Below are positions 7,875 to 46,236 of a DNA stretch of 64,000 nucleotides, one piece after another. The stretch is from Sulfuricurvum sp. (GTDB lineage Bacteria; Campylobacterota; Campylobacteria; Campylobacterales; Sulfurimonadaceae). The position numbers and the translations under genes were made by a program. Positions within the stretch are counted from its first letter, which is position 1; each line of letters opens with the position of its first letter. The notes below the pieces were generated by a model. That model saw nothing but the letters and a program-made list of their open reading frames with translations, did no database searches and was not told the origin of the DNA. The DNA lies in the NCBI RefSeq assembly GCF_028688295.1, contig NZ_JAQTYM010000002.1:1-64000 (forward strand). Reading direction: 5' to 3'.

Positions 7875-9146
7875 TTACGCGTCAAGCGCCGCTTTCAAAT
7901 CAGCAATCAAATCATCACCATCTTCCAATCCGACACTTAAACGGATCAAACCTGCACTCACGCCCGCTTTTTTCAATTCCTCTGGGCTAAGTTGTTGATG
8001 CGTTGTCGAAGCGGAGTGGTTTATGATCGATTTACTATCTCCGATATTAGCCACGATTGAGAATATCTCAACATTATCCAATACTTTTTTTGCCGTTTCA
8101 AAATCTTCTACCTCGAAACTGAGCAATCCGCTCGCACCCTTAGTGAGATATTTTTGTGCATTGGAATAGCTTTTATCATTCTCTAGCAATGGATAGTTTA
8201 CTTTTTTAACACGAGGATGATTTTCTAGCCACTGTGCAATTTGCAATGCACTTTGAGAGTGTTGTTTCATCCGCAGTGATAACGTTTCAACCCCTTGAAT
8301 AAACAACCACGCGTTAAATGGACTTAATACCGCTCCCGTATCACGCATAAGAATCATTCGAGTTCTAAAGGTAAATAAAATACCACTGACGACCGAATCG
8401 GCAAACACCAATCCGTGATAACTCACTTCAGGGGTATTAAAATCGGGATAACGGAGGTTTCCTTTGATTTTCTCGGCTAAATTTTTTCGCTCAACGATTA
8501 ATCCGCCGATTGCAAGCCCTTGACCCGTAGTATATTTACTCGCACTGTGAACGACAACATCCACCCCTAGCAACAACGGCTGACATAACATAGGGGTAGC
8601 AACCGTATTATCAACAATCGTGAGTATATTGTGTTTATTTGCAATAGCGATCAGTGCATCAAAATTAGGAACATCGATACTCGGGTTGGTGATACTCTCA
8701 AAAAATAGACATCGGGTATGCTCATCCACTAAAGCTTCAATAGCATCAGGTGAGTGAATATCAAAAAACCTTGCTTCAATTCCCAATCGTTTGAGTGTTT
8801 GAGAAAAAAGAGTCACCGTTCCGCCGTAGAGTTGATTGGCAACGATAATATTATCTCCCGCTTGCGCAACATTAAGGATGCTGTAAAATATAGCACTCAT
8901 CCCACTGCTTACCGCCAATGCACCGCTACCACCTTCTAGAACAGCAAATCGTTTTTCCAAAACAGCTGTTGTAGGATTACCTACTCGGGTATAGACATTA
9001 TCTGTCCCTTGCTGTAGATTAAAACTGCTTGCCGCAAAATCGGTACTCCCAAAATCAAAAGCGGTACTCATATACATTGGTACTGCCATCGTCCGTTGGG
9101 TATCTTTATCGTATCCTGCGTGTAGTGCTTCAGTTTGAAGTTGCAT
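7875..9146 (-). CDS. metY: O-acetylhomoserine sulfhydrylase (PLP enzyme)
   Basis: 423 aa from the ATG at 9146. This start is chosen because AAAGGATGAAC lies just upstream and the protein then opens LQTEALHAGYD, the usual family N-terminus; the track start is 19 codons longer without a ribosome site. Cys/Met-metabolism PLP fold: YTRVGNPTT, SSGMSAIF, and the PLP lysine in HSASKYTTGQG (~residue 202). It replaces the acetyl group of O-acetylhomoserine with sulfide to give homocysteine. Pairing with metX supports this role over cystathionine chemistry. Confidence 0.93.
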   Translation of the reverse strand: MQLQTEALHAGYDKDTQRTMAVPMYMSTAFDFGSTDFAASSFNLQQGTDNVYTRVGNPTTAVLEKRFAVLEGGSGALAVSSGMSAIFYSILNVAQAGDNIIVANQLYGGTVTLFSQTLKRLGIEARFFDIHSPDAIEALVDEHTRCLFFESITNPSIDVPNFDALIAIANKHNILTIVDNTVATPMLCQPLLLGVDVVVHSASKYTTGQGLAIGGLIVERKNLAEKIKGNLRYPDFNTPEVSYHGLVFADSVVSGILFTFRTRMILMRDTGAVLSPFNAWLFIQGVETLSLRMKQHSQSALQIAQWLENHPRVKKVNYPLLENDKSYSNAQKYLTKGASGLLSFEVEDFETAKKVLDNVEIFSIVANIGDSKSIINHSASTTHQQLSPEELKKAGVSAGLIRLSVGLEDGDDLIADLKAALDA

Positions 9147-9210
9147 GTTCATCCTTTGTAATTGTTTGGTGCAATTGTATCGCCATCCCACAGTATTTCC
9201 CAAGTTTCCT

Positions 9211-9230
9211 TAATGGAATAATGTCCATTA
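9211..9230. promoter_or_regulatory. Inverted repeat between guaB and metY
   Basis: TAATGGA (9211-9217) and TCCATTA (9224-9230) form a perfect 7-bp repeat across 6 bases, upstream of a possible metY promoter (TTGGGA-N18-TACAAT on the minus strand). It may be a metYX operator or a weak guaB terminator. Confidence 0.35.
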
Positions 9231-9246
9231 GTTTAATAAGGATTAT

Positions 9247-12033
<2,787 letters not shown>

Positions 12034-16181: not shown

Positions 16182-16257
16182 GTCCCGTTAGCTCAGCTGG
16201 TAGAGCATTTCACTTTTAATGAAGGGGTCGATGGTTCGAATCCATCACGGGACACCA
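16182..16257 (+). tRNA. tRNA-Lys(TTT)
   Basis: 76 bases including encoded CCA. Acceptor GTCCCGT pairs with ACGGGAC, the discriminator is A, and the anticodon loop CTTTTAA gives TTT. GGTTCGAATCC T-arm and GCTCAGCTGGTAGAGC D-arm are standard. First gene of a six-tRNA cluster. Confidence 0.96.
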
Positions 16258-16273
16258 TATTGTTGATTTCAGT

Positions 16274-16349
16274 GACCCTTTCGTCTAGTGGCCAAGGACA
16301 CTATCACTTCATGGTAGGAACAGAGGTTCAAATCCTTTAGGGGTCGCCA
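16274..16349 (+). tRNA. tRNA-Glu(TTC)
   Basis: 76 bases with encoded CCA. Acceptor GACCCTT pairs with AGGGGTC (one T-G pair), the discriminator is G, and the anticodon loop ACTTCAT gives TTC. T-arm AGAGG-TTCAAAT-CCTTT has one G-T pair. Slightly weaker stems than its neighbours but complete. It supplies the Glu-tRNA pool also used by GatCAB chemistry. Confidence 0.93.
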
Positions 16350-16403
16350 CTTGTTTCAAAATGTTATTTGATTTACAAATGAGATGATTTTTCATCTTAA
16401 TTT

Positions 16404-16479
16404 GGGAGTTTAGCTCAGTTGGTAGAGCGCTACCCTTACAAGGTAGATGTCACAAGTTCGAGTCTTGTAATTCCCACCA
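16404..16479 (+). tRNA. tRNA-Val(TAC), copy 1
   Basis: 76 bases with encoded CCA. Acceptor GGGAGTT pairs with AATTCCC, the discriminator is A, and the anticodon loop CTTACAA gives TAC. Identical to the copy at 16600. Confidence 0.96.
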
Positions 16480-16491
16480 TTATTTGGCGCT

Positions 16492-16568
16492 GCAGCGGTA
16501 GTTCAGTTGGTTAGAATACCTGCCTGTCACGCAGGGGGTCGCGGGTTCGAGTCCCGTCCGCTGCGCCA
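16492..16568 (+). tRNA. tRNA-Asp(GTC), copy 1
   Basis: 77 bases with encoded CCA. Acceptor GCAGCGG pairs with CCGCTGC, the discriminator is G, and the anticodon loop CTGTCAC gives GTC. Identical to the copy at 16688. Confidence 0.96.
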
Positions 16569-16599
16569 TATGTTATTTGATTTTCGTTTTAAAACTCTC

Positions 16600-16675
16600 G
16601 GGAGTTTAGCTCAGTTGGTAGAGCGCTACCCTTACAAGGTAGATGTCACAAGTTCGAGTCTTGTAATTCCCACCA
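16600..16675 (+). tRNA. tRNA-Val(TAC), copy 2
   Basis: 76 bases, same sequence as 16404-16479, part of the duplicated Val-Asp unit. Confidence 0.96.
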
Positions 16676-16687
16676 TTATTTGGCGCT

Positions 16688-16764
16688 GCAGCGGTAGTTC
16701 AGTTGGTTAGAATACCTGCCTGTCACGCAGGGGGTCGCGGGTTCGAGTCCCGTCCGCTGCGCCA
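16688..16764 (+). tRNA. tRNA-Asp(GTC), copy 2
   Basis: 77 bases, same sequence as 16492-16568, last gene of the cluster. No clear terminator hairpin follows; the next gene is convergent. Confidence 0.96.
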
Positions 16765-42555: not shown

Positions 42556-43653
42556 TTAGCGAAAATTATCAATCAACTTTGTAAAAACAGTGTAAAGATT
42601 TCTCACTTCGTCTATCGATGTACGCTCATTAGGAGCATGAATTGTGTCGTTAATAACTCCAAATTCGATGACATCAATTCCATACCATGCCACGAAACGT
42701 GCATCTGATGTCCCTCCTGCAGTCGATTTTTTCGGCATAACTCCACATGTCTCATATATAGATTTCATGAGTGTTTGTACAATTAGCGTATTTGCATCGG
42801 TCACAAACGGGTGGGCTGATTGATCAAGACTTAGCGTGTAATCTAACCCTTTGAGATGTGAGGCGATAAAAAATGCTATTTTTTCTTTATCGGTGCAAGT
42901 AGAATTTCTGACATTAAACATCATTTTCAGTTTTCCGGGTGAAACATTCGTTGTCTCAATTCCTGCACGAATATCGGTGATCACAATCTGACTTGGGGCG
43001 AAATACTCATCCCCTTCATCCAAAAAAGCACCTGCAATCTTAGAAAGAACTGGTGCAATTTGATGGACGGGGTTGATCGCTTTTTCAGGATAAGCAGCAT
43101 GTCCCTGTTTTCCCGTAATTTCAATCACTCCATTAATAGAGCCGCGACGGCCAACTTTGATTGCATCACCAAATTTTTCTTCACACGTCGGTTCGGCTAC
43201 AACAACAGCATCCGGTAGAAGATTCTGTTCTTTAAGATATGTTAATACCTCAACTGTCCCGTATTTTGCAGGTCCCTCTTCATCGGATGTCAATAGAATT
43301 GAAAGAGTGCCGTTAAAATCGTGTGCTTCTTTAAGTGCTTGGGTAAAAGCCGCCACACCACTTTTCATATCCTGTGCACCACGTGCATAAATATACCCCT
43401 CAATCTCGGTTGCTACAAACGGATCACTATTCCACCCCTCCCCTGAGGGGACAACATCGACATGTCCGGCGAAGCAGAGGTGTTTTCCTTCTCCGAAACG
43501 ACGGTAAGCAAAAAGATTTTTCACCCCTTCTTTATCGATTCGGATTATCTCAAAATCATGCAGATACTCTGACAAAAATTCAAAAATTCCACCATCTTCG
43601 GGAGTGACACTCGGTGATTCCAAAAGATGCTTAAATAGCTCTATAACGTTCAA
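42556..43653 (-). CDS. dapE: Succinyl-diaminopimelate desuccinylase
   Basis: 365 aa M20-family metallohydrolase. Metal ligands in CFAGHVDVVPSG, GAQDMKSGVAAF and TSDEEGPA, and the late GGTSDARFV and GVINDTIHAPNE. It releases succinate to give LL-diaminopimelate for lysine and peptidoglycan. Overlaps the MutS-like gene (ATGA). Confidence 0.95.
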   Translation of the reverse strand: MNVIELFKHLLESPSVTPEDGGIFEFLSEYLHDFEIIRIDKEGVKNLFAYRRFGEGKHLCFAGHVDVVPSGEGWNSDPFVATEIEGYIYARGAQDMKSGVAAFTQALKEAHDFNGTLSILLTSDEEGPAKYGTVEVLTYLKEQNLLPDAVVVAEPTCEEKFGDAIKVGRRGSINGVIEITGKQGHAAYPEKAINPVHQIAPVLSKIAGAFLDEGDEYFAPSQIVITDIRAGIETTNVSPGKLKMMFNVRNSTCTDKEKIAFFIASHLKGLDYTLSLDQSAHPFVTDANTLIVQTLMKSIYETCGVMPKKSTAGGTSDARFVAWYGIDVIEFGVINDTIHAPNERTSIDEVRNLYTVFTKLIDNFR

Positions 43654-45686
43654 TGTCCATCCTCTTTTAATTGCGTCTCATATTCTAGACGTAAACCATT
43701 CGGTGTCATTATAAAACCTTGCAGTTTGATTTTGCCTTGCGAAATTTGACGAGAATGGGTTTCACATATAGGGATAAGATGATGATGCTCTTTTAAAGCG
43801 GGATTTTTTTGCAGATTTCGAACCAACGCTCCGCAGATGACGCATTCAGATGCCACCACTTCACGATAGCGTTTAATATACTCTTTTTGATTACCCAATT
43901 CGAGGACATCGTATTCTTTGGCTAAGCTCTCTCGTAGCCGCGCAGCATTTTGTAAAAAATGGGGGTTCATATGGAGAGATTCGGCAAATTCTAATCCATA
44001 CACACTGCTTCCCCGCCCAGATTTTAGAATACGATCATAGACCAACCGATCACTTCCTTCATCATACCGTACACTCAAATGTAAATGCACTACTTCACGT
44101 AAACGGCTGAGCTCACTGACCATAGAGAGCTGATGTAAATGTGTTGTCATTAAAAACAGGCACCCTTTTTTATTCAATTCTATTATTGTACTCGCGACGA
44201 TGGCTACTGCCGAGAGTGTTTCAGTACCATGACTTATTTCATCACCCAAGACAAGAGAGCGAGATGTTGCACGCGTGAAAATTGTGTTAAGTTCTAACAT
44301 CTCCACCCCAAAGGTTGAGAGTGATTTTGCTACATTATCACGTGATTGAATACGCGTATAAATCCCATCAAACAGCGAAAATTTCATTCCCTTCGCCGGA
44401 ACAAAAAATCCAGCTTGAGCCAAAGTCACGGCGATACCGATACTTTTCATTAGAGAAGATTTCCCGCTGGAGTTAATTCCATACAGCAATACACCTCGGA
44501 TATTGGCTCCATCATGTACTTTAGAATCCAACATTACCGTATCAGGATAGGGTAAATCAACATGATCACGATTCCCCATCACAATATCATTCGCGACATA
44601 AGATATTCCCTGAGATTCAATCAATAAATGACGTAAACCGCTTATTTGCAAAAAGTTTTCATCACATGAATCCACAAGAGATGGACGTGTAAGTGCGTAT
44701 TTTTGAGCATTAATCGCCGAAGAAACAGCTACATCCACCTGCGCGATCCAGTCAATGGTAGTGTGGACGAACTGAGTTTGACTTAGCAGCCACTGACGAT
44801 TATAATAATTATTTTTAAGCTCTATCTCCCATCCTTCCAATAGTGTCTCTGATGGAAGAATAAAATTTAATTTATGTCTGACACAATACGCTTGTATTTC
44901 AATCATAAAAATACATGCATTGTAAAAATCGTTAAATCGATCTTTTTGACGTTCTTGCAACCTTTGCCATAAAAGCTCTAAATCACCGATATGAAGCAAT
45001 TTTTCTTGAAGCCATAGTGAGTGCGGATTCACTATTTCAATCCAATCGAACCGTTTTTGAATTTCTTGAGACTCTCTAATAGGCAAAAAAAGTCGAAAAC
45101 GACCTAATCTTTTTCCCATAGGAGTAGACATGGTTAAAAAAAGGGTAGAAATGGTTGAAATGCGCAAATCAGCACTGGTCATTTCAAGCTGTTCTAAAGC
45201 ATTATTACCGAGTTCCATTAATTGTGGTGTTTCTAAAATCTTGGGAAGTGTATAGGGAACAAAATTCTTGTGCTTAGTTTGATAGTATGCCATCAAAGCT
45301 AGAGCTTGGGAACATAGCGGCCGAATTTCTAAATTTAAATGTTCAATCGGGCTTAATAGAGATTGGAGATTGAACATCGCTTGAAATAGCGTGTTTTGTT
45401 CGTCTAACTCAAATATTTGCTCATCATAGGTGATTACAAAAGTCGTAAAACTACTCGCTACATCATCAAAAAGTTTCCTTGATGATGCACCAATAATCAA
45501 GTGCGTACAGTTTGTCACAAATAATAAATGCAATAAACGATCAATAGCACTGTAAGGGTGAGACGGTTCAGCCTCAATTTCACACATCCACCCTTTTAGC
45601 CCGCTGGGCTCAAACATAGCCAAACCAATCGAATACCCAAAGCTATCATAGTTGATAAAGATGGAAGCTTGAGCCTCTAAAATCAT
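43650..45686 (-). CDS. MutS-family protein with C-terminal HNH-like domain (MutS7-like, no recognition domain)
   Basis: 678 aa. The first ~130 residues look like MutS domain II, followed by the lever/core (~165-390) with GNNALEQLEM, and the ATPase with Walker A GINSSGKSS (~404), LSTFGVEMLELN, LVLGDEISHGTETLSAVAI and THLHQL. The last ~65 residues contain CVIC (~614), a HHH (~631) and ICETHSRQISQGKIKLQG, which resembles a degenerate HNH nuclease. MutS with an HNH tail is the MutS7 subfamily, reported from epsilon-proteobacteria, giant viruses and octocoral mitochondria. Domain I, which reads mismatches with Phe-x-Glu, is not visible, and no ORF upstream supplies it. It may act on branched DNA rather than mismatches. 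Confidence 0.83.
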   Translation of the reverse strand: MILEAQASIFINYDSFGYSIGLAMFEPSGLKGWMCEIEAEPSHPYSAIDRLLHLLFVTNCTHLIIGASSRKLFDDVASSFTTFVITYDEQIFELDEQNTLFQAMFNLQSLLSPIEHLNLEIRPLCSQALALMAYYQTKHKNFVPYTLPKILETPQLMELGNNALEQLEMTSADLRISTISTLFLTMSTPMGKRLGRFRLFLPIRESQEIQKRFDWIEIVNPHSLWLQEKLLHIGDLELLWQRLQERQKDRFNDFYNACIFMIEIQAYCVRHKLNFILPSETLLEGWEIELKNNYYNRQWLLSQTQFVHTTIDWIAQVDVAVSSAINAQKYALTRPSLVDSCDENFLQISGLRHLLIESQGISYVANDIVMGNRDHVDLPYPDTVMLDSKVHDGANIRGVLLYGINSSGKSSLMKSIGIAVTLAQAGFFVPAKGMKFSLFDGIYTRIQSRDNVAKSLSTFGVEMLELNTIFTRATSRSLVLGDEISHGTETLSAVAIVASTIIELNKKGCLFLMTTHLHQLSMVSELSRLREVVHLHLSVRYDEGSDRLVYDRILKSGRGSSVYGLEFAESLHMNPHFLQNAARLRESLAKEYDVLELGNQKEYIKRYREVVASECVICGALVRNLQKNPALKEHHHLIPICETHSRQISQGKIKLQGFIMTPNGLRLEYETQLKEDGH

Positions 45687-45822: not shown

Positions 45823-46236
45823 ATGAAACGACCTAACCCCATAAACGAAGAAGTATTATTTGATGGACGAAGTTTGATTTCCGAAACTGATACTAAAGGT
45901 ATTATAACCTATGTCAACCGTAAATTTACAGAAATGACACTCTACTCAGCCGTCGAAGCCGTCGGACAACCACATAGTATCTTGCGTCATCCGGATATGC
46001 CTAAAGCAGGATTTGAAGGGATGTGGAAAGTTATTCAGAGTGGGAAAATTTGGGAAGGGTATGTTAAGAACCTTCGTAAAGACGGTAAATTTTACTGGGT
46101 TGTTGTCCATATTGTCCCAAAACTTGATGAAACGGGAGAAATTATCGGTTATATTGCATCACGTAAAATGCCCGATCGAAACCGTCTTAAAATAGTCGAA
46201 GAACAATACAAAGAGTTACTCGCACAAGAACATTAA
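45823..46236 (+). CDS. Single PAS-domain redox/energy-taxis protein (CetB/Aer-type)
   Basis: 137 aa, a lone PAS domain: SLISETDTKGIITYVNRKF, SILRHPDMP, GKIWEGYVKNLRKDGKFYWV and IGYIASRKMP closely follow the FAD-binding PAS of Aer and of Campylobacter CetB. With no output domain it must pass its signal to a partner, in Campylobacter the membrane chemoreceptor CetA. No such receptor is adjacent, so the partner is elsewhere. AGGAGATG precedes the start. Confidence 0.83.
   Translation: MKRPNPINEEVLFDGRSLISETDTKGIITYVNRKFTEMTLYSAVEAVGQPHSILRHPDMPKAGFEGMWKVIQSGKIWEGYVKNLRKDGKFYWVVVHIVPKLDETGEIIGYIASRKMPDRNRLKIVEEQYKELLAQEH

Follow-up and report, generated by a model that had tools for sequence, protein, structure and literature searches.

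MutS proteins function as dimers, some of which are asymmetric in eukaryotes: in MSH2-MSH6 the mismatch is contacted by MSH6 only. MutS7, a family found in epsilonproteobacteria, in octocoral mitochondria (mtMutS) and in giant viruses, is regarded as an enzyme that carries out mismatch repair by itself in MutL-less organisms, octocoral mitochondria included; a biochemical test of MutS7 was not found in the literature searched. MutS-related ATPases without a mismatch domain also include KamC, a MutS-fold reactivase represented by an NCBIfam equivalog. MutS7 has been defined by the presence of domains I, III, and V and a C-terminal HNH domain (PMC3166940). Many MutS subfamilies are without domains I and II, and some of them act outside DNA (PMC12292046), MutS2 for instance also acting in ribosome rescue (cited in PMC12292046). 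In the literature searched we found no MutS that has domain II while lacking both domain I and the clamp, which does not prove that such a protein is undescribed. Here we describe a gene of this architecture from Sulfuricurvum, hereafter the short form, located in a window of 64,000 nucleotides (the whole stretch of DNA that was analysed). Its features are listed below, domain boundaries within the protein being approximate.

43650..45686, minus strand: short MutS7-derived ATPase gene, 678 aa (P0001), with an ATG start and without internal stop
45237..45665, minus strand: connector domain II, about residues 8-150, now N-terminal, as aligned to native MutS7 and to E. coli MutS
44841..45236, minus strand: first half of core domain III, residues 151-282, matching MutS_III 1-100 of 194 and the alignment
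44793..44840, minus strand: deletion scar, residues 283-298, marking the lost clamp/lever (domain IV, a net loss of about 147 aa)
44502..44792, minus strand: second half of core III leading into the ATPase, residues 299-395, with P354L fixed in the short clade
43917..44501, minus strand: ATPase/dimerisation domain V, residues 396-590, matching MutS_V 2-186 of 188
44454..44480, minus strand: Walker A GINSSGKSS, residues 403-411, unchanged
44310..44330, minus strand: signature loop AKSLSTF, residues 453-459, with G455S
44220..44249, minus strand: Walker B LGDEISHGTE, residues 480-489, unchanged
43653..43916, minus strand: degenerate HNH tail, residues 591-678, apparently kept as a non-catalytic module, judging from conservation, dN/dS and the lack of an HNH profile match
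43833..43844, minus strand: CVIC, with the putative zinc-knuckle cysteines C615 and C618 kept
43755..43787, minus strand: HHHLIPICETH, with C641 and H644 kept
42556..43653, minus strand: dapE, overlapping the mutS stop
45823..46236, plus strand: divergent PAS-domain gene, the upstream neighbour in nearly all short-form loci

A Pfam profile search of the 678-aa protein returned two domains over cutoff, MutS_V at residues 400-587 (E 6.5e-39) and a partial MutS_III at residues 162-256 (E 5.9e-9), and the MutS_I and HNH profiles gave no match even at E <= 10. PADLOC and PHROGs searches gave no informative family. Alignment against full-length MutS7s and E. coli MutS shows both halves of core III and a complete domain V, with domain I, the mismatch-recognition domain with its F-x-E motif, absent and the clamp/lever region missing between residues ~282 and ~298. 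The net loss comes to about 147 aa when the native MutS7 of another genome (G010) is taken as reference, since it has 181 aa between the matched stretches where the short form has 34. A Thermus MutS profile match likewise skips 130 residues where the short form has 17. The N-terminal part is still recognisable, residues 11-274 being 30-34% identical to native MutS7, and a low-confidence structure model gave only marginal RNase-H-like matches, as expected for domain II. Upstream of the ATG the frame stays open for 7 codons only and the PAS gene begins 136 bp away, so that no domain I is concealed there; a hidden or split domain I is excluded by this short open frame together with the fact that the only MutS_I match of the genome lies in another protein, described below. 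With domain I and the clamp lost, the two DNA-contacting parts of MutS are missing. An earlier note on this DNA, made from the sequence alone, had rightly seen no domain I and had regarded the ATPase and core domains as intact, which holds for the complete ATPase domain, while core III is interrupted by the deletion; it had missed the clamp deletion, the second, full-length MutS7 of the genome and the retention of domain II at residues 8-150. Besides one lone relative, the phylum search gave no other clampless match. This relative is the single MutS7 (L009:982-3333) of a 1.3 Mb genome from another genus of the family (G027), which has independently lost the clamp and the HNH tail and keeps a domain I region carrying an insertion; being known from one genome, it may represent decay or an assembly error. 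Elsewhere in the window (16182-16764) a cluster of tRNA genes reads Lys-Glu-Val-Asp-Val-Asp, with two copies of the Val(tac)-Asp(gtc) pair.

Against the MutS1 profile (TIGR01070) the short form scores 167.5 bits with a cutoff of 641.7, and no MutL is found in 41 family genomes. It resembles MutS2 in having no domain I, but MutS2 is also without domain II, keeps the clamp and usually carries Smr/KOW domains, the genus has a separate MutS2, and the short form scores 122.1 bits against a TIGR01069 cutoff of 400. With KamC-type ATPases it shares a MutS-related ATPase without a mismatch domain, but reaches only 115 bits where the equivalog cutoff is 300. The closest relative is MutS7 itself, with which it shares its phylogenetic position, the ATPase motifs (GINSSGKSS...GDEISHGTET), a homologous HNH-derived tail and the native locus beside dapE, and from which it differs in the absence of domain I and the clamp, in the loss of the HNH catalytic residues and in three fixed substitutions of the ATPase region. 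Since the lineage and domains III and V are those of MutS7 while domain I and a functional HNH are not found, the sequence identifies the short form as a MutS7 descendant and not a functional MutS7.

Full-length MutS7 has an invariant set of tail residues, C, C, HH, N, C, HH, and H. The short-form tail contains the CVIC, HHH, and CETHS elements reported earlier and retains C615, C618, C641, and H644, but the catalytic HH pair is deleted, the HNH asparagine is replaced by His, and the last metal-binding His (position 649) by Ser. The tail matches no HNH profile, unlike those of native and long MutS7, which score 21.0 bits and 31.0 bits (the latter for the tail alone) with HNH_2; hence the HNH is degenerate, as had been suspected. 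Nevertheless the tail is conserved within the short clade as CECVICGALVRN..KEHHHLIPLCETH..ISQGKIKLQGFIMTPQGLRLEYETQL, and in a seven-genome subclade that is without it, the replacement C terminus KAKSMYVRL is conserved in turn. As far as sequence comparison can tell, the short tail descends from the HNH tail without its catalytic residues, and lacking HH, N, and H it should not cut; a zinc knuckle is probably kept, and the HNH derivation suggests that some contact with nucleic acid may persist. An AlphaFold model of the tail gave no beta-beta-alpha arrangement and is unreliable (pLDDT 68.7 for one of five models and 42-51 for the rest), and that of the whole short form, built from two sequences, is unusable at pLDDT 34. 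Foldseek searches with the whole-protein and tail models, both of low confidence, gave nothing at E <= 0.001. Given the state of these models, our reading of zinc binding and of the tail fold is taken from the sequence.

The ATPase region carries substitutions as well. When 25 short forms were compared with 75 other MutS7s, 11 positions were found to differ consistently, and those among them that are conserved in E. coli as well are P354L, G455S, and A514T (E. coli P586, G666, and A726), each fixed in 25/25 short forms and in 0/75 other MutS7s. At G455, for example, all 25 short forms have S and all 75 other MutS7s have G. In E. coli, G666 lies two residues before S668, and A726 is beside T727-H728. 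Walker A, Walker B, and the HTH region are conserved in the short forms, and the composite ATP site retains both of its halves. An altered ATPase site would agree with the fixed substitutions in the signature loop and next to the catalytic His, and the three substitutions together suggest an ATP cycle that is changed and not dead.

As for the origin of the gene, the short forms make up one clade (support 100/100), which is sister to the native full-length MutS7s of the family in two trees (96/93 and 97/93) that included no viral or octocoral MutS7. The MutS7 ancestry asserted in the earlier note is thereby upheld, the clade not being placed outside MutS7. Other genera of the family carry one full-length MutS7, 55-62% identical to the short form in the ATPase, compared with 50% for the second MutS7 of the genome studied here. 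Moreover, the dapE neighbourhood is common to the short form and to the native full-length MutS7 in three genera (g2, g3, and g6): native full-length mutS7 lies beside dapE in L064, L067, L017, L020, and L022, and in L066 it lies beside the same PAS gene. By tree and locus, we thus regard the short gene as a positional ortholog of native MutS7 that was passed on by vertical descent and underwent remodelling in Sulfuricurvum. A duplication inside Sulfuricurvum, requiring a clade of short and long forms, was rejected (AU p = 2.9e-5), as was a single clade of all family MutS7s (AU p = 1.6e-7).

The second MutS7 has a different history. Two MutS_V proteins are encoded in the genome, the short form and a 989-aa protein on contig C74 (G000:C74), which has domain I (the only MutS_I match of the genome), the clamp and an intact HNH, and is about 50% identical to the short form over residues 303-670. 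The GC3 of the long copy is higher than that of the short gene, dapE, MFS, and argG in 19/19 genomes compared (0.41-0.76), and its dS between genomes is similar to that of its neighbours; taken together, these indicate that the long copy is of separate descent yet long established in the genus. We read its gain as horizontal transfer, and it may alternatively go back to ancient paralogy with losses. Full-length MutS7 is present in 25 of the 28 genomes with the short form, and in 17/18 of those that are at least 95% complete; three genomes (G295, G296, and G303), all fragmented assemblies, have the short form only, and nine have the long form only. MutL is over cutoff in none of the 41 family genomes, the present one included, while 11 of 14 control genomes are over cutoff. 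A MutS2 of ~740 aa occurs in other genomes of the genus, and none was detected in the 93%-complete assembly studied here. One 99% complete Sulfuricurvum genome (G306) has neither MutS7 form and only MutS2, so that MutS7 is either dispensable there or missing from the assembly.

The surroundings of the long copy deserve a separate description. In the genome studied here, full-length mutS7 is flanked (L060:4045-4935 and 8530-9828) by a WYL-domain protein and by a weak PADLOC PDC-M03A match that by eye is HipA-like. In the genus, the full-length mutS7 locus downstream of serA is a variable hotspot (L112:10205-13195 and surroundings in G314, L126 in G288, L114 in G313), where extra 5′ or 3′ mutS7 fragments flank inserted genes; in G314 a type I restriction-modification system (HsdR/M/S) and PDC-M62A/B lie between the intact mutS7 and its fragments. 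In G322 (L116:9015-10638) a tyrosine integrase gene comes after a 5′ piece of full-length mutS7 that covers residues 6-81, and a 31-bp repeat, 93.5% identical (L107:552-582), is common to the contig with the remaining mutS7, which looks like the integration of an element into the 5′ part of mutS7. In G308 (L113:1-8390) the resident mutS7 is split into two pieces (residues 256-411 and 406-503), and a different full-length MutS7 (995 aa, 47-48% identical) is found between them, along with an Endonuclease_NS gene, apparently an insertion into mutS7 that brought its own MutS7.

Short forms were found in 28 of 41 Sulfuricurvum genomes, as orthologs with 52-83% identity; a single-protein scan of genome contigs added one further Sulfuricurvum ortholog, class and family searches gave none outside the genus, and viral contigs scanned with a MutS7 alignment gave no relatives. 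Pairwise dN/dS (NG86) among short forms is 0.057-0.10 for the whole gene, 0.023-0.048 for the ATPase, and 0.042-0.097 for the degenerate tail, the last from members having the tail, with saturated-dS pairs left out. The short form is thus under strong purifying selection and is not eroding. The gene is absent from 13/41 Sulfuricurvum genomes, most genomes being draft assemblies in which absences are uncertain. Twelve of the genomes without it still have dapE, and no MutS remnant adjoins it; in 11 of these 12 dapE directly borders either the PAS gene or the next neighbouring gene, G311 having an unrelated ORF. Every locus seen had either an intact gene or no MutS, and disrupted copies were not observed. 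The stem branch of the short clade is long (1.24), which we read as a burst of change followed by constraint. It is close to certain, in our judgement, that the short form is a remodelled gene kept by selection and not a stand-alone mismatch nuclease.

The best reading of this anatomy is an ATP-switching dimer module without a DNA grip or a cutter of its own, and the protein probably has a new job. It would still dimerise and switch with ATP, but alone it would be unable to recognise a mismatch, to close a clamp on DNA, or to nick. Our main reading, to which we give a probability of about 40%, is that a remodelled native MutS7 acts as partner or regulator of the full-length MutS7. The role itself, that of a partner or regulator that does not grip DNA, is in our view the likeliest mechanism, though held tentatively and at less than even odds. 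Domain V would join the short form to the cell's own full-length MutS7 in an asymmetric dimer, in which the full-length subunit reads and cuts DNA and the short subunit supplies an altered ATPase site and the putative zinc-knuckle tail. This reading is favoured because MutS proteins act as dimers, both forms co-occur in 25/28 genomes, and asymmetric dimers exist in eukaryotes. The likeness to MSH2, the MutS subunit that leaves mismatch reading to its partner, is a functional analogy only, as MSH2 keeps all domains and the pairing of the short form is hypothetical. The co-occurrence, seen in draft assemblies, is not significant (Fisher p = 0.18). A raw mirror-tree correlation of 0.91 between short and long forms was dropped as evidence of pairing once 8 control genes were added, the partial correlation beyond shared phylogeny being 0.23 (rank 17/45). 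The full proposal of a MutS7 heterodimer, with the full-length protein as reader and nicker and the former native MutS7 as an ATP-gated regulatory subunit held off the DNA, is speculative and on balance rather unlikely. From the sequence, a homodimer would be equally possible, both halves of the composite ATP site being kept.

Nearly as likely as the partner model is a stand-alone, repurposed ATPase that would act as a homodimer on a target other than clamp-held duplex DNA, such as a protein, an RNA, or the ribosome. The composite ATP site and dimer region are complete, both DNA-contacting domains are lost, no specific coevolution with full-length MutS7 was detected, and G295, G296, and G303 have the short form with full-length MutS7 undetected; MutS2 in ribosome rescue and the reactivase KamC would be precedents. 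On the other hand no partner gene was found, dapE, Trx, and RidA are ancestral MutS7 neighbours and carry no functional signal, and the HNH-derived tail hints at nucleic-acid contact.

Far less probable is a dominant-negative or dosage regulator, in which poisoned heterodimers would leave the cell with less mismatch repair and more mutation or recombination; the anatomy is the same as in the partner model, the HNH is dead and the gene is lost without remnant in some lineages, but strong purifying selection across most of the genus would be unusual for a simple poison. A lone branched-DNA or recombination factor like MutS2 or MutS5, self-contained as the earlier note had proposed, seems slightly less probable still: domain I is absent, the connector and core remain, and MutS2 binds junctions without domains I and II (PMC12292046), but in MutS2 that role falls to a retained clamp and levers, and the short form has lost its clamp in addition to domain I and nuclease catalysis. 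Finally, an eroding remnant made redundant by the second MutS7, the other option of the earlier note, might account for the progressive loss of domains, the tail missing from the seven-genome subclade, the gene missing from 13/41 genomes and the long stem branch, but it is very improbable and is rejected by dN/dS, which is 0.02-0.10 in every region tested, while the tail motif and KAKSMYVRL are conserved and neither disrupted copies nor remnants were seen.

The short form separates an ATP-switching module from DNA binding, with the ATPase and a dead nuclease tail still under selection, and hence offers a natural system for asking what a freed ATP module does. It bears on whether bacterial MutS proteins form functional heterodimers, and on the way in which a second gene copy frees the resident copy for a new role. 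If the partner model is true, the MutS7 heterodimer would be a bacterial counterpart of MSH2-MSH6, one that came about when a displaced gene was recruited.
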